Of a stretch of 64,000 nucleotides of DNA, positions 52,907 to 59,974 are shown piece by piece. Origin of the DNA: Raoultibacter timonensis (GTDB lineage Bacteria; Actinomycetota; Coriobacteriia; Coriobacteriales; Eggerthellaceae); assembly GCF_900240215.1 (NCBI RefSeq), contig NZ_LT964679.1, positions 583,970 through 647,969 on the forward strand, written 5' to 3'. The notes under the pieces are model-generated. The model made no database searches, was not told where the DNA came from, and saw only the letters and a list, made by a program, of their open reading frames with translations. How positions within the stretch are numbered: the first letter of the stretch is position 1; each line of letters starts with the position of its first letter. The translations under genes and the position numbers were made by a program.

Positions 52907-53149
52907 TCAGCTGACCTGTGTTGCCAGATAGGCGATGATGTCGTCCGACTCGTACATCGCCTTGCCGCCGACAACGAGGCAGGGGACTTGCTTCTTGCCG
53001 CCGACGCACACCAGATCGTTTTGAATGCCGGGCTGAGTGGTGTCGCGCATATCGAGCGTGATGCCCTTCTCATCCATAAAGCGGAGTACTTTCTGGCAGA
53101 ACGGGCAGGTTTTCTTATAGTAAAGTGTATGGTCTTTCAAATACGACAC
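52907..53149 (-). CDS. Glutaredoxin-like protein
   Basis: 80 residues from GTG 53149, chosen because AAGGGAG lies 5 bases upstream; an upstream TTG start (53182) would add 11 residues. YYKKTCPFCQKVLRFMDEKG contains the CPFC dithiol centre, and QVPCLVVGGKAMYESDDIIA is the cis-Pro and GSH/GST-N type segment. It reduces protein disulfides or mixed disulfides in the cytoplasm; the partner reductant is unknown since coriobacteria generally lack glutathione. Confidence 0.87.
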   Translation of the reverse strand: MSYLKDHTLYYKKTCPFCQKVLRFMDEKGITLDMRDTTQPGIQNDLVCVGGKKQVPCLVVGGKAMYESDDIIAYLATQVS

Positions 53150-53365
53150 AGGCGCTCCCTTCGTTCCATCCTTGCATGCCAACCGCAGAAACGGGACAAT
53201 TCACTTTATCTTACTAAAGAGATGAGGTAACGGGGGGATGCGGAGTCTCTTGTTGCCGAGCGGTTGCTTTCCTTACGGGGGGTATTCGCGGATACTCGAA
53301 CCCAACGGAGCGTTTGTTGCGCGAACGTTGGGCGGACTATAGCATGCCTTCCGGAGGTGCATACG

Positions 53366-53953
53366 ATGAACAACGAGAAAACGGGAATCCTGATTCGACG
53401 GCTTCGCAGAGAGCGAAACATGACGCAAAAGCAGGTAGCCGACGCGTTGCATGTGAGCGATCGCGCGGTGTCGAAGTGGGAGCGGGGCTGTGGGCTTCCC
53501 GATGTGTCGCTACTCAGGGGCCTATCGGCCGTTCTCGGTGCGGATATGCAGAGCATTCTATCGGGTGACCTCAATCAAAACGATACCGACGGAGGAAATA
53601 TGAAGCGAATCAAACTTTATCGCTGCGCCTCGTGCGGCAATATCCTGACGAGCACGTCGGATGCCGAACTATCGTGCTGCGGTCGCTTGCTCGAGCCCCT
53701 CGAGGTCCAATCTGCAGCGGGAGAGCATGTGCTGTCTGTCGAGGAAATCGAAGATGAATACTATGTGCAACTCGACCATCCGATGGAAAAGGGCCATCAT
53801 ATCGCATTCGTCGCATGCGCGACCGATGAGCGCATCGTGCTGGTGCGCATGTATCCCGAGCAAGGCGCCCAGGCTCGCTTTCCGCGGATGCCGCGCAGCA
53901 CTTGGTACGCTTGCTGCACCGAGCATGGACTATTTTCGTTTCAGCATATTTAA
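53366..53953 (+). CDS. XRE-family regulator fused to a complete desulfoferrodoxin/superoxide-reductase-like domain
   Basis: 195 residues from ATG 53366 with CCGGAGG upstream. Residues 1-70 are an XRE helix-turn-helix (RRERNMTQKQVADALHVSDR, then VSKWERGCGLPDVSLLRGL). Residues 80-195 form a desulfoferrodoxin-like unit. The desulforedoxin centre is Cys87-x2-Cys90 and Cys104-Cys105. The superoxide-reductase centre has the ligand set His121, His138 (HPM), His144, Cys184 and His187 (C-x2-HG). All nine metal ligands appear conserved, so iron binding and redox sensing at a promoter are likely (inference). Its target genes are not evident. The gene stands alone. Confidence 0.85.
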   Translation: MNNEKTGILIRRLRRERNMTQKQVADALHVSDRAVSKWERGCGLPDVSLLRGLSAVLGADMQSILSGDLNQNDTDGGNMKRIKLYRCASCGNILTSTSDAELSCCGRLLEPLEVQSAAGEHVLSVEEIEDEYYVQLDHPMEKGHHIAFVACATDERIVLVRMYPEQGAQARFPRMPRSTWYACCTEHGLFSFQHI

Positions 53954-54942: not shown

Positions 54943-56160
54943 ATGGCTGGTGTAAACGTCAAAAGTGAAATCAAGCCTTTGAAAAAAGTCTTGCTTCACC
55001 GACCGGGTAAAGAGTTGCTGAACCTCACACCAAACACGCTCGAAGAGCTTCTGTTCGACGACATTCCGTTTTTGAAGGTCGCCCAGGAAGAGCACGACGC
55101 GTTCGCCCAGATTCTTCGCGACAACGGCGTAGAAGTCGTGTATCTCGAAGATCTTATGGCGGAAGTGCTCGACCAGAAGCCCGAGTTGCGTGAACAGTTC
55201 CTGAAGCAGTTCATCGAGGAGGCTGGCATCCGCACCGATCGGTACCAGAAGATCATCTTCGATTACCTCAACGATAACTACAAGGACAGCAAAGAACTGG
55301 TTATGAAGACGATGGAGGGCATCAACCTCACCGAGCTTCACACCGACAAGAGCAACTCCCTCGTCGACCTGGTGAGCGAAGCGTCCAAGATGGTCGTCGC
55401 TCCCATGCCGAACCTCTACTTCACCCGCGACCCGTTCGCCATGATCGGCAACGGCGTCAGCATCAACAGGATGTACTCGGTCACGCGTAACCGCGAGACT
55501 ATCTACGGCGAGTACATCTTCAAGTACCATCCGGATTTCGAAGGAACTCCCGAGTACTACAGCCGCTACAACACCTTCCACATCGAAGGCGGCGATATCC
55601 TCAACATCAACGACAAGGTTCTCGCTATCGGTATCTCCCAGCGCACCGAGCCCGATGCGATCGACGCCATCGCCAAGAACATCTTCGAGTCGGATTCTCC
55701 GATCAAGACGATCCTGGCCTTCAATATCCCGAACTCCCGTGCGTTCATGCATCTCGATACGGTCTTCACCCAGATCGACTACGACAAGTTCACCGTTCAT
55801 CCGGGCATCCTCGGGCCGCTGACCGTGTTCGAGATCACCCCCGACGATAACGGCGGCATCAAAGTCAAGGAGATGCACGACACGCTGGAAGAGATTCTCG
55901 AAGCGTACATCGGCAACCCCGTCGAGCTCATTCCCTGCGGAGGCGGCGACCGTATCGCTGCCGAGCGCGAGCAGTGGAACGACGGCTCGAACACGCTCTG
56001 CATCGCTCCCGGTACCATCGTGGTCTACGAGCGCAACGACGTCACCAATGCCGTGCTCAAGGAGAAGGGCCTCAACGTTTTGGAGATGCCCTCCGCCGAG
56101 CTTTCGCGAGGCCGTGGCGGCCCGCGCTGCATGAGCATGCCCATCTGGCGCGAGGACTAG
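54943..56160 (+). CDS. arcA: Arginine deiminase
   Basis: 405 residues, normal length. EIKPLKKVLLHRPGKELLNL, FTRDPFAMIGNGVSINRM, HIEGGDILNINDKVLAIGIS, HLDTVFTQID and the terminal RGRGGPRCMSMPIWRED mark the family; Cys396 is the nucleophile with the catalytic His and Asp in the HLDTVF and EGGD segments. It hydrolyses arginine to citrulline and ammonia in the cytoplasm, the first step of fermentative ATP gain. AAGGAGGG lies at the right distance. Co-transcribed with arcB, arcC and the antiporter gene; a strong hairpin lies in the arcA-arcB gap. Confidence 0.98.
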   Translation: MAGVNVKSEIKPLKKVLLHRPGKELLNLTPNTLEELLFDDIPFLKVAQEEHDAFAQILRDNGVEVVYLEDLMAEVLDQKPELREQFLKQFIEEAGIRTDRYQKIIFDYLNDNYKDSKELVMKTMEGINLTELHTDKSNSLVDLVSEASKMVVAPMPNLYFTRDPFAMIGNGVSINRMYSVTRNRETIYGEYIFKYHPDFEGTPEYYSRYNTFHIEGGDILNINDKVLAIGISQRTEPDAIDAIAKNIFESDSPIKTILAFNIPNSRAFMHLDTVFTQIDYDKFTVHPGILGPLTVFEITPDDNGGIKVKEMHDTLEEILEAYIGNPVELIPCGGGDRIAAEREQWNDGSNTLCIAPGTIVVYERNDVTNAVLKEKGLNVLEMPSAELSRGRGGPRCMSMPIWRED

Positions 56161-56184
56161 CTCCTCATCTGGTTTACACCCTGT

Positions 56185-56211
56185 CGGCCCCCAGCCTTGC
56201 GGCGGGGGCCG
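56185..56211 (+). promoter_or_regulatory. Strong hairpin between arcA and arcB
   Basis: CGGCCCCC (56185-56192) pairs with GGGGGCCG (56204-56211); inner GCC/GGC pairs extend the stem. No T-tract, so it probably protects or attenuates the mRNA. Confidence 0.6.
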
Positions 56212-56287
56212 GTCGAGGCGAGGCGGATATAACTTGGCACCGCCTGTTTCAAGACAAATGTATATGCGCTATCGAAAGGAATGAGCA

Positions 56288-57283
56288 ATGCCTACTAGTT
56301 TGATCGGACGTAACTTTTTGAAGCTGCTGGATTTCACGCCCGACGAGATCCGCTACCTCATCAAGCTGTCCAAAGAGTTTAAGAACCTGAAATTGACGGG
56401 CACCCCCCATCGTTATCTCGAAGGCAAGAACATCGTTCTTCTCTTCGAGAAAACCTCTACCCGTACCCGCTGCTCGTTCGAGGTCGCAGGCATGGACCTC
56501 GGCATGGGCGTCACCTATCTCGATCCCGGCAGCTCCCAGATGGGCAAGAAGGAGTCCATCGAGGATACCGCCCGCGTGCTCGGCCGCATGTACGACGGCA
56601 TCGAGTACCGCGGCTACGATCAGTCGATTGTCGAGGATCTCGCTGCCAACGCCGGCGTGCCGGTGTGGAACGGCCTTACCACCGAGTTCCATCCCACCCA
56701 GATGATCGCCGACATGCTCACCGTGGAAGAGAATTTCCCCATGGGCATCAAGGGACTCAAGTTCGTATTCATGGGCGACGCCGAGAACAACGTGGCGAAT
56801 TCGCTCATGGTCGTGTGCGCCAAGCTCGGCCTGCACTTCGTCGCCTGCGGTCCGAAGGAGCGCATGCCGAAGGCCGAACTGGTCGAGCAGTGCAAGCAGG
56901 TTGCCGCCGAGACCGGCGCCACCATCACGCTGACCGAGGATGTCAAGGAAGCCTGCACGGGCGCCCATGTCATCTACACCGACATCTGGGTTTCCATGGG
57001 CGAGCCGGCCGAGCTTTGGGCCGAGCGCATCAAGCTCCTCGAGCCGTATCGCGTGACCACCGAGGTCATGGGCATGGCCGCCGATGATGCCATCTTCATG
57101 CACTGCCTGCCTTCGTTCCACGACACCAAGACCACCATCGGTGCCGATATCGCCGAGAAGTTCGGCGTGACGGAGATGGAAGTCGAGGACGCGGTCTTCG
57201 AGTCCCATCAGTCCAAGGTGTTCGACGAAGCCGAGAACCGCATGCACACCATCAAGGCCGTCATGTACGCGACCCTTTCGTAA
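56288..57283 (+). CDS. arcB: Ornithine carbamoyltransferase (catabolic)
   Basis: 331 residues. EKTSTRTRCSFEVA is the carbamoyl-phosphate site, FHPTQMIADMLTV contains HPTQ, and MHCLPSFHDTKT with HCLP is the ornithine site; all are in the expected order. In this operon it works backwards, phosphorolysing citrulline to ornithine and carbamoyl phosphate. ATG 56288 has GGAATGAGC nearby. arcC starts 16 bases after its stop, so they are translated from one message. Confidence 0.97.
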   Translation: MPTSLIGRNFLKLLDFTPDEIRYLIKLSKEFKNLKLTGTPHRYLEGKNIVLLFEKTSTRTRCSFEVAGMDLGMGVTYLDPGSSQMGKKESIEDTARVLGRMYDGIEYRGYDQSIVEDLAANAGVPVWNGLTTEFHPTQMIADMLTVEENFPMGIKGLKFVFMGDAENNVANSLMVVCAKLGLHFVACGPKERMPKAELVEQCKQVAAETGATITLTEDVKEACTGAHVIYTDIWVSMGEPAELWAERIKLLEPYRVTTEVMGMAADDAIFMHCLPSFHDTKTTIGADIAEKFGVTEMEVEDAVFESHQSKVFDEAENRMHTIKAVMYATLS

Positions 57284-57299
57284 GCGGAAGGAGACCGTT

Positions 57300-58253
57300 A
57301 TGGCTTATCAGAAAGGCGAAGGCAAGTCCGTGGTCATCGCGCTGGGCGGAAACGCCCTGGGCGACTCCCCGCAGGAGCAGCTCGAGCTCGTGAAGAACAC
57401 CGCGGAGCACATCGTGGACATGGTCGCCGAGGGCATCAACGTCGTGGTCTCCCACGGCAACGGCCCGCAGGTCGGCATGATCAACAACGCGTTCGACTAC
57501 GCGTCGACCCACGACGGCAAGACGCCCGCCATGCCCTTCCCCGAGTGCGGCGCCATGAGCCAGGGCTACATCGGCTACCAGCTCTCCCAGGCGATCCTCA
57601 ACGAGATGAAGCGCCGCGGCATCATGCGCTCGACGGCCTGCGTCGTCACGCAGACGGTCGTCTACCCCGAGGACCCGGCGTTCGACAACCCCACCAAGCC
57701 CGTGGGCGCCTTCCTCACCGAGGAGGAGGCCAAGAGGCGCGCCGAGGAGACCGGCTACACCTACAGGGAGGACTCCGGGCGCGGCTGGCGCCAGGTGGTC
57801 CCCTCGCCGAAGCCCCAGCGCATCGTCGAGTTCGACGCCATCAAGGACCTCATGGACGACGGCTACATCGTCGTGTCCACGGGCGGCGGCGGGGTCCCCG
57901 TGATCGAGCGGGACGACTCCTACCGCGGCGTGCCGGCGGTCATCGACAAGGACCGCTCGAGCGCCAAGCTCGCCGCGGACTTCCGCGCCGACATGCTCGT
58001 GATCCTCACGGCGGTCGAGAAGGTGGCCATCAACTTCAACACGCCCGAGCAGGAGGAGATCGACTCCATGACGGTGGCCGAGGCGAGGAAGTACATCGCC
58101 GAGGGCCAGTTCGCCCCCGGCTCGATGCTGCCGAAGGTCGAGGCCTGCATCGAGTTCGTGGAGGCCCATCCCGAGGGCCGCGCGCTCATCACGTCCCTCG
58201 AGTGCGCCGCCAAGGGCCTCAAGGGCGAGACGGGAACCGTCATCACCAAGTAG
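57300..58253 (+). CDS. arcC: Carbamate kinase
   Basis: 317 residues. VVIALGGNALGDSPQEQLEL, VSHGNGPQVG, GGGGVPVIERDDSYRGVPAV, VIDKDRSSAKLAADFRADML and ILTAVEKVAINFNTPEQEEI belong to the carbamate/amino-acid kinase fold. It transfers phosphate from carbamoyl phosphate to ADP, giving the ATP of the pathway. The codon usage is distinct: almost every third position is G or C and AGG is common for Arg, unlike arcA, arcB and the antiporter. This may reflect replacement from another lineage or very strong codon bias. Confidence 0.97.
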   Translation: MAYQKGEGKSVVIALGGNALGDSPQEQLELVKNTAEHIVDMVAEGINVVVSHGNGPQVGMINNAFDYASTHDGKTPAMPFPECGAMSQGYIGYQLSQAILNEMKRRGIMRSTACVVTQTVVYPEDPAFDNPTKPVGAFLTEEEAKRRAEETGYTYREDSGRGWRQVVPSPKPQRIVEFDAIKDLMDDGYIVVSTGGGGVPVIERDDSYRGVPAVIDKDRSSAKLAADFRADMLVILTAVEKVAINFNTPEQEEIDSMTVAEARKYIAEGQFAPGSMLPKVEACIEFVEAHPEGRALITSLECAAKGLKGETGTVITK

Positions 58254-58279
58254 TTTTGCAGCAAAGGGGTGCTTTACCG

Positions 58280-58324
58280 GGCGGACGGAGCCTGGACCGT
58301 AGAGAGCCTTAGGCTCGGTCCGCC
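58280..58324 (+). promoter_or_regulatory. Long hairpin between arcC and the antiporter gene
   Basis: GGCGGACGGAGCC (58280-58292) pairs with GGCTCGGTCCGCC (58312-58324) with one central mismatch. Without a T-tract it is not a classical terminator; mRNA processing or stability control is possible. Confidence 0.6.
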
Positions 58325-58375
58325 TGCAATTTCTCGTTCACCGTAAACAACGATCCCTACTAAAAAGGAGGGGCT

Positions 58376-59974
58376 ATGGCCGAGAAAGTTAAAGACAAGA
58401 GCAAGAAGAAGCGATCAATCAGTTCGTTTACTATTCTGCTCATCATGCTTATCGTGCTTGCCGTCATCACGGTTGTGATGTCGTTCGCAGGCGTCGAGGG
58501 CGTGGAAGGTGCGACGATCGCCAACGTGGCAACCGCACCGGTTAAGGGCTTCACCGACGCATTGCCGGTTTGCCTGTTCGTTTTGATCCTCGGTGGATTC
58601 TTGGGAATCATCACCGAAACCGGAGCGCTTGACGCGGGCATCGCCGCGCTGGTCAAGAAGCTCAAGGGCAACGAACTCATTCTGATTCCCATTCTCATGT
58701 TCATCTTCTCCATCGGCGGCACGACGTACGGCATGTGCGAGGAAACCGTACCGTTCTACCTGCTGCTGGCTGCGACAATGGTCGCCGCGGGCTTTGACAG
58801 CGTTGTCGGCGCGGCAACCGTTCTGCTCGGTGCTGGCTGCGGCGTGCTCGGTTCGACGGTCAACCCGTTTGCCGTGGGCGCTGCGGTCGACTCGCTCTCC
58901 GGTACGGGCATCGCGATCAACCAGGGTACGATCATCCTTCTCGGTGTCGTTCTTTGGCTCGTCACGCTGGCCATCTCCATCGTGTTCGTCATGCGCTACG
59001 CGAAGAAGGTCAAGGCGAACAAAGGCTCGACCATCATGTCTTTGCAAGAGCAGGAGACCATGAAGGAGGAGTTCGGCGAGGCGCAGCAGGAAGCCTTGGA
59101 CGCCGAGGCGAACCCCAGCCGCAAGCTCATGACCGGCCGTCAGAAGGGCGCTCTCATCGTGTTCGCCTTTACGTTCGTCGTTATGATCGTCGGCTTCATT
59201 CCGTGGGGCGACTTCAACATCAACGTGTTCGATGCCGGTGCGGCTTCCGAAGAGGTTGTAACGCCCGTTACCGGCGAGGAGATCGTCGCTTCGTGGGACG
59301 ATGCGCAGGTCGGCGGAGCGCTTGAAATTCCCGAAGGAGTCGAAGGTACGGTTACCGAAGACGTTGCGATTTCCGACGGATGGTCTTCGTTCCTTACGGG
59401 CGTGCCGCTGGGCGGATGGTACTTCGACGAGGCGTCTACGTGGTTCCTCATCATGGCGATCGTCATCGGCGTTGTCGGCGGGTTGTCCGAAAGCCGCTTC
59501 GTCAAGGCCTTCATCAACGGCGCTGCCGATATGATGAGCGTCGTGCTCATCATCGCGCTCGCACGTTCGATCACCGTCCTTATGGGCGAAACCGGTCTGG
59601 ACATGTGGATTCTCGAGAACGCCGCTGCGGCCCTTGCGGGAATGTCGGCGATCATATTTGCCCCGCTGTCGTTTTTGCTCTACGTGGTGCTGTCGTTCCT
59701 CATCCCGTCCTCTTCGGGCATGGCGACGGTGTCCATGCCGATCATGGGTCCCTTGGCGAACAACCTCGGGTTCTCGCCTGACGTCATGATCATGATCTTC
59801 AGCGCCGGCAACGGTCTCGTGAACCTGTTCACTCCGACGAGCGGTGCCATCATGGGCGGTCTTGCGCTCGCGAAGGTGGAGTACTCCACGTGGTTGAAGT
59901 TCGGTGCAAAGCTGTTCATCATCCTCGGCGTCGTCTGCATGGTTATCCTTACGGCGGCAATGCTGATCTTGTGA
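58376..59974 (+). CDS. YfcC-family arginine/ornithine antiporter (candidate ArcD)
   Basis: 532 residues, about twelve to thirteen helices. FTILLIMLIVLAVITVVMSF, GGTTYGMCEETVPFYLLLAA and SFLIPSSSGMATVSMPIMGP with SAGNGLVNLFTPTSGAIMGG are typical of the YfcC / C4-dicarboxylate anaerobic carrier superfamily, which replaces the APC-type ArcD in several arc operons. A soluble insert of about 60 residues lies in the middle (FDAGAASEEVVTPVTG onward). From position, its job is to exchange ornithine for arginine across the membrane. Preceded by AAAAAGGAGGGGC. Confidence 0.88.
   Translation: MAEKVKDKSKKKRSISSFTILLIMLIVLAVITVVMSFAGVEGVEGATIANVATAPVKGFTDALPVCLFVLILGGFLGIITETGALDAGIAALVKKLKGNELILIPILMFIFSIGGTTYGMCEETVPFYLLLAATMVAAGFDSVVGAATVLLGAGCGVLGSTVNPFAVGAAVDSLSGTGIAINQGTIILLGVVLWLVTLAISIVFVMRYAKKVKANKGSTIMSLQEQETMKEEFGEAQQEALDAEANPSRKLMTGRQKGALIVFAFTFVVMIVGFIPWGDFNINVFDAGAASEEVVTPVTGEEIVASWDDAQVGGALEIPEGVEGTVTEDVAISDGWSSFLTGVPLGGWYFDEASTWFLIMAIVIGVVGGLSESRFVKAFINGAADMMSVVLIIALARSITVLMGETGLDMWILENAAAALAGMSAIIFAPLSFLLYVVLSFLIPSSSGMATVSMPIMGPLANNLGFSPDVMIMIFSAGNGLVNLFTPTSGAIMGGLALAKVEYSTWLKFGAKLFIILGVVCMVILTAAMLIL

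Follow-up and report, generated by a model that had tools for sequence, protein, structure and literature searches.

The window, a 64,000-nucleotide stretch of the Raoultibacter timonensis genome, encodes a protein of the HTH-Dx-SOR class, in which a helix-turn-helix (HTH) domain of the XRE type is fused to a desulforedoxin (Dx) and superoxide reductase (SOR) module. The protein is probably an autoregulator, most likely activating its own promoter, with the Dx-SOR part serving as its input domain. Going beyond the original prediction for this locus, most of the HTH-Dx-SOR genes surveyed are preceded by a CTACG-N3-CGTAG dyad whose spacing to the -10 hexamer is constant. We know of few regulators by which strict anaerobes sense oxygen. 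The predicted operator, the promoter register and the opposition of an indispensable metal centre (centre I) to a dispensable one (centre II) make the family directly testable, in strains such as Gordonibacter sp. 28C, Acetobacterium dehalogenans DSM 11527 and A. wieringae DSM 1911.

The features of the locus are collected in Table 1. The ATG start of the fused gene is preceded by a GGAGG ribosome-binding site, and residues 10-61 of its product match Pfam HTH_3 (E 3e-12; 46.8 bits against a curated cut-off of 23). Both Pfam models of the second half score below their cut-offs, Desulfoferrod_N on residues 81-107 (19.6 bits, cut-off 23) and Desulfoferrodox on residues 136-190 (16.2 bits, cut-off 22.2). 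The SOR half is nonetheless undoubtedly genuine, because three other lines of evidence agree, namely TIGR00320 (dfx_rbo) on residues 81-190 (E 3.8e-12; 46.5 bits, short of the equivalog cut-off of 146.9), phmmer matches to the solved 2Fe-SORs 2ji2, 1vzg and 1dfx (E 1.5e-9 to 1e-8) and the predicted fold. In the AlphaFold2 model (pLDDT 90.4), residues 77-194 superimpose on SOR structures with Z of 13.9-14.8 and residues 4-68 on the P22 c2 repressor with Z of 12.2. The HTH_3, TIGR00320, phmmer and fold matches thus confirm the fusion of an XRE regulator with a desulfoferrodoxin that had been proposed for this gene. Re-reading of the translation also bore out the residue numbers given earlier for all nine iron ligands, which are complete in the window protein: the Cys4 set of centre I and the His4-Cys set of centre II (H121, H138, H144, C184 and H187).

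Table 1. Coordinates of the HTH-Dx-SOR gene, its predicted control elements and the divergent neighbor, numbered from the first base of the window.
Feature	Coordinates	Strand	Remarks
HTH-Dx-SOR protein	53366..53953 (stop codon included)	+	195 aa; orthologue in the same-genus genome G001, 72% identity
Cro/C1 (XRE) helix-turn-helix, residues 10-61	53393..53548	+	Pfam HTH_3; P22 c2 repressor fold
Desulforedoxin-like Cys4 site (centre I), residues 81-109	53606..53692	+	C87, C90, C104, C105; weak Desulfoferrod_N match; phmmer
Superoxide-reductase-like beta domain, residues 110-195	53693..53950	+	phmmer, ligand alignment, fold match
Predicted auto-operator CAACGGAGCGTTT, variant of CTACG-N3-CGTAG	53303..53315 (centre 53309)	+	Aligned with relatives; conserved in G001
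Predicted -35 hexamer TTGCGC (3 of 6 bases match; weak)	53317..53322	+	Placed from 74 aligned promoters
Predicted -10 hexamer TAGCAT, at the family's constant offset	53340..53345	+	74 aligned promoters
Divergent glutaredoxin/GST-N-like gene, GTG start inferred	52907..53149	-	Pfam match obtained with a longer ORF reaching 53182

The fused protein departs from canonical SORs in several respects. The Glu-Lys pair ahead of the first centre II histidine, which we take to be E47-K48 in desulfoferrodoxin numbering, is Gly119-Glu120 in the window protein, so that E120 occupies the position of Lys48, a residue with a catalytic role in SORs. Its ligand spacings are also compressed, at CX2C-X13-CC and H-X16-H, against X15 and X18-19 in standalone SORs (31 of the 32 in which the whole motif was measurable). 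On the HTH side, positions R14, T20-Q21, A25, S36 and W38-E39 show no variation across an alignment of 45 sequences that includes the window protein, and are presumably the residues typical of DNA-binding XRE domains.

Exact copies of CTACG-N3-CGTAG occur in the last 150 nt of 22 of 75 non-redundant upstream regions; in none of 60 shuffles did any single 5-base dyad reach more than 3 regions. When the dyad was scored in 88 upstream regions (those of a zinc-finger subtype left out), 27 were perfect, 22 had one mismatch, 24 had two and 15 had more, against dinucleotide-shuffle expectations of 0.01, 0.42 and 6.7 for the first three classes; scores of 8-10 out of 10 were therefore observed in 73 of the 88 regions and expected in about 7. 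Searches for exact inverted repeats within single upstream regions had given nothing consistent, and it was the count across many regions that succeeded. Dyad-bearing relatives span Bacillota and Coriobacteriia. The window site CAACGGAGCGTTT and the site of the G001 orthologue, CAACGAAGCGTTT, score just 7 of 10 against the dyad, so the support for the window site comes from its alignment with relatives, eight further members of the same bacterial family having the common form CTACGGAGCGTTCATTG.

The zinc-finger subtype comprises ten members (L179-L183, L185-L189) in which an extra CX2C-type segment, PDYCGWC, is seen by eye ahead of the Dx-SOR part; no CTACG dyad occurs upstream of these ten genes. 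HTH residue 40 varies together with the right arm of the dyad, Arg occurring without AG (34/34), Ser or Thr with AG (35/35) and Cys in both settings (3 without, 1 with). This co-variation was rejected as independent evidence, as it corresponds to about one event on the tree.

Genome-wide, the exact pattern is nearly confined to the gene itself: in 40 gene-bearing genomes, 31 of 35 places lie before the HTH-Dx-SOR gene. Within the window's bacterial family, presumably that of Gordonibacter, ten gene-bearing genomes yielded 11 exact matches, 10 before the gene (one in each genome) and one extra. A further 21 gene-bearing genomes from the class contained 17 places, spread over 16 genomes; 16 of these places precede the gene, and in the remaining five genomes the gene's own site carries a mismatch. 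Nine genomes of relatives from the contig collection gave 7 places, 5 before the gene, as judged by comparing coordinates, and two stray ones in a single genome; three of the nine had no match, and in the four without a match at the gene the own site departs from the pattern. Among genomes bearing only standalone SORs, any exact match was found in 1 of 21 and 1 of 10. The reversed-pattern control is commoner than the pattern itself in the 21 gene-bearing genomes of the class and in the 21 standalone-only genomes (39 places each), so the argument rests on the place of the matches and not on their number. Allowing one mismatch in the ten family genomes gave 77 matches against 18 for the control, and all 19 of these 77 that were examined lie inside open frames no shorter than 204 codons, an observation of little weight where the DNA is GC-rich. 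The window's own genome holds an extra exact site (G000:C1:690733; L211:1501-1517) ahead of a small ORF that we take to be GIY-YIG-like and that had no match in G001 in a search run without a positive control; by our estimate, chance alone would give about 0.6 stray exact matches per ten genomes.

The own promoter is therefore the only conserved target found, although weaker or lineage-specific targets may exist, and this pattern of occurrence suggests that the HTH-Dx-SOR protein most likely controls mainly its own production. A dyad conserved before the gene and nearly confined there also makes it very probable that the protein is a sequence-specific DNA-binding regulator, in line with the transcription factor of the original prediction.

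The dyad stands in a strict register with the promoter. Counting from its first base in 74 aligned promoters, which are related rows and hence not independent counts, T14 is present in 74 and G16 in 72 (the TnG of the -35 hexamer), and 69 have both A38 and T42 of the -10 hexamer, while at none of the other offsets between 22 and 49 does such an A...T pair occur in more than 11. The dyad directly adjoins the -35 hexamer on its upstream side and leaves both hexamers free, its centre falling at about -43 from a predicted transcription start placed 7 bases past the -10 box. The -35 hexamer matches TTGACA at 4 or more of 6 positions in 32 of the 74 members and at fewer than 4 in 42. The window's promoter was missed by a generic consensus scan, in keeping with a weak promoter.

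The fixed distance to the -10 hexamer and the weak -35 hexamers suggest activation. The HTH, presumably as a dimer, would bind the dyad just upstream of its own -35 box and would most likely activate the promoter in a manner analogous to that of phage lambda CI, which activates PRM from a dyad near -42. The position of the dyad centre near -43, together with the fixed spacing and the weak -35, is the reason for favoring activation over repression. The likeness to lambda CI at PRM is a proposed parallel, and the HTH fold is common to the window protein and the P22 c2 repressor; unlike both phage proteins, the window protein has a Dx-SOR input domain, a single dyad and no phage context.

A somewhat unlikely alternative is that the protein represses its own gene, the bound dimer blocking RNA polymerase at the -35 region until damage to the iron centre relieves repression. 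Many small XRE proteins with a single site at their own gene are repressors, the dyad directly adjoins the -35 hexamer, and some members have near-consensus promoters (L014 and L028, TTGACG-N17-TATAAT). Repression, however, would not require the dyad-to--10 spacing that is kept in 69 of 74 promoters, and it fits less well with hexamers left free by the dyad and with the prevalence of poor -35 matches. Repression from a site near -43 is feasible as well, and with a fair -35 in 32 of 74 members, dependence on activation is not general in the family.

In order to survey the metal centres, two sources were combined. A scan of a contig collection gave 51 loci, from which 44 full-length proteins were used, and a Dx-SOR profile searched against a sample of 296 genomes of the window's class, presumably Coriobacteriia, gave 60 matches above 100 bits in 59 genomes (the next match listed had 81.8 bits, and at least one lower match, G002:C1:1480713, is a fragment). 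Loci were retrieved for 59 of the 60, the remaining one being the window. Left out were L046-L051 (partial or HTH only), L005 and five duplicates, giving a final set of 99 fused proteins, window included. L005 (3989-4558), from a relative of Litchfieldia salsa, has a stop in frame within the HTH, the remaining frame being open.

Two iron centres had been predicted to act as sensors. What the family conserves is centre I, whose four cysteines are retained in 97 of the 99 proteins (the exceptions being L178 and L184, of which L184 has no N-terminal half that can be recognised), whereas the five ligands of centre II are complete in just 58 and incomplete in 41. Complete sets were found in 40 of 55 proteins from the class search, window included, and in 18 of 44 from the contig collection, and H138 is the sole centre II ligand that is invariant. 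In the zinc-finger subtype centre II is incomplete in 10 of 10 and centre I is retained. As for the conservation of the ligands in orthologues, all nine are complete in ten family members with the same form of operator (the window, L145, L004, L006, L155, L169, L142, L144, L140 and L158), but L010, which ranks fourth in closeness to the window protein on the tree, has lost H187. Centre II switches between complete and incomplete at least 13 times on a tree of 96 rows built without the ligand columns (L184, L163 and L156 dropped) and 11 times on one built with them and with ten standalone SORs (L184 dropped), counts that do not separate gain from loss. The fused domains fall on one side of a branch from the 10 standalone SORs with an SH-aLRT of 100, in a quick tree of few columns and many rows.

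As a control, 52 standalone SORs of the window's bacterial family were examined, comprising the 30 best Pfam matches, those of the window's genome and of G001, and the 20 lowest strong matches; two partial matches (G108 and G008) were left out. Here the Glu-Lys-His motif and centre II are retained in 52 of 52, and centre I in 49. The three exceptions, L074, L253 and L258, have lost cysteines of centre I and retain the catalytic lysine and centre II. Among the fused proteins the catalytic lysine is retained in 5 of 99 and absent in 94, and Glu-Lys coexists with all five centre II ligands in one only (L016). Judging from these alignments, the enzymes protect centre II and the fused proteins protect centre I. 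This opposite conservation, together with the presence of a separate canonical SOR (L052, 126 aa) in the window's genome, makes a sensor based on centre I a more likely role for the fused domain than detoxification. Any enzymatic activity has probably become secondary or disappeared, and the earlier suggestion that the protein could also detoxify superoxide is weakened by the rarity of the lysine and by the canonical SOR encoded elsewhere in the genome. If the sensor reading is true, the family would exemplify the recruitment of an enzyme domain for sensing.

The near-invariance of the Cys4 site as the only such metal site could also reflect a zinc-ribbon regulator, in which centre I would hold a structural zinc and the signal would be unrelated to iron or oxygen. 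The fold is still predicted for L020, a fused relative lacking four of the five centre II ligands (pLDDT 88.3), and the zinc-finger subtype bears its further CX2C-type segment. We consider this reading unlikely, as the Cys4 pattern and the fold match desulforedoxin and centre II is complete in more than half of the family.

It is still less probable that the protein is a self-inducing superoxide reductase, whose main job would be enzymatic, the HTH tuning its own synthesis with other targets unneeded. Consistent with it, exact sites lie almost exclusively before the own gene, so that the protein itself may be the output, and the window protein and nine other members with the same form of operator keep all five centre II ligands. 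Against it stand the loss of the catalytic lysine in nearly all members, the canonical SOR in the same genome, and the persistence of the operator where centre II is incomplete: the dyad is retained in 54 of 58 members with a complete centre II and in 21 of 30 with an incomplete one (21 of 40 with the zinc-finger subtype included), which argues that regulation is independent of SOR activity.

An enzyme or structural protein with a non-regulating HTH-like domain, as in the iron epoxidase HppE with its N-terminal HTH fold, is brought to mind by HppE and MPnS among the fold matches of the HTH part, and is very improbable given the invariance of the DNA-binding-type XRE residues and a gene-specific dyad that is missing from 29 of 31 standalone-SOR-only genomes. 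HppE-type enzymes likewise join an N-terminal Cro/C1 fold to a mononuclear iron domain, which in them is a cupin; we know of no evidence of regulation by their HTH.

Under the preferred reading of an activating autoregulator, the Dx-SOR part would be the input domain, with the Cys4 centre I as its indispensable metal site and centre II, complete in the window protein and incomplete in many relatives, tuning the response as an optional second input. A change in the presumed iron centre, such as oxidation, iron loss or reaction with superoxide or oxygen, would alter DNA binding or the contact with RNA polymerase, detoxification being left to the standalone SOR of the same genome. Superoxide or oxygen as the signal is a guess. 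A more specific version can be put forward tentatively, as a possibility: a one-gene iron/redox switch whose only conserved target would be its own promoter, activated from -43 with positive feedback, and in which an SOR would have turned sensor, centre I being indispensable, the lysine lost and centre II decaying in many lineages. Such positive feedback, if true, might provide an oxygen memory.

With desulfoferrodoxin and other 2Fe-SORs (1dfx, 2ji1, 1vzg) the window protein shares the fold and the nine iron ligands; it differs from them in the HTH, which is absent there, in Gly-Glu for Glu-Lys, in its shorter spacings and in a TIGR00320 score below the equivalog cut-off. The architecture is not new, the HTH-Dx-SOR class having been named in 2011 by SORGOdb, where it holds 19 of 325 SORs (PMC3116461). 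As described in the available text of that paper, the class has the HTH before the Dx-SOR module, and inclusion required centre II, whose His4-Cys set is present in the window protein; the Dx motif is given as CXXCX15CC, and the window protein has the four cysteines with a spacing of X13 (PMC3116461). As only proteins with centre II were collected, that database could not, from its description there, reveal the loss of centre II, and the available text gives no operator, regulation or tested function for the class (PMC3116461). Among the matches listed in a search of open-access literature, with subscription papers mostly outside its scope, SORGOdb alone names the class. Two regulators were considered as relatives and rejected on the available text of their papers: TrtA of Treponema denticola, an XRE protein of 104 residues in which no C-terminal domain is recognised (PMC12724145), and OseR of C. 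difficile, which belongs to the Spx family (PMC11980386).

The fused gene diverges from a glutaredoxin-like gene across a common intergenic region. The corresponding ORF (to 53182) matches Pfam Glutaredoxin (E 2.4e-11) and GST_N_3 (E 2.3e-12), and its counterpart in G001 was detected only via a long ORF antisense to it. The glutaredoxin gene is a possible second target of the regulator. Between the two genes, a block at 53205-53220, TTTATCTTACTAAAGA, is conserved with the same-genus genome and may be part of the glutaredoxin promoter. Downstream lies an arginine deiminase pathway cluster (54943-59974) with arcA, ornithine carbamoyltransferase, carbamate kinase and a YfcC-like antiporter, and ornithine carbamoyltransferase and antiporter ORFs are also found near the fused gene in G001. 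The glutaredoxin gene and this cluster accompany the fused gene in the window and G001 only. A conserved neighborhood was rejected as a clue to targets, since no neighbor recurs family-wide. Upstream neighbors were grouped by BLAST only. Of 87 downstream same-strand ORFs, 72 were scanned with Pfam (ten of the zinc-finger subtype, two of L172 and three second ORFs were left out), and the commonest family was the CAT acetyltransferase PF00302, in 7 of the 72. By BLAST grouping, a chloramphenicol-acetyltransferase-like gene is next on the same strand in L003, L008, L010, L011, L012, L016, L017, L021 and L024.
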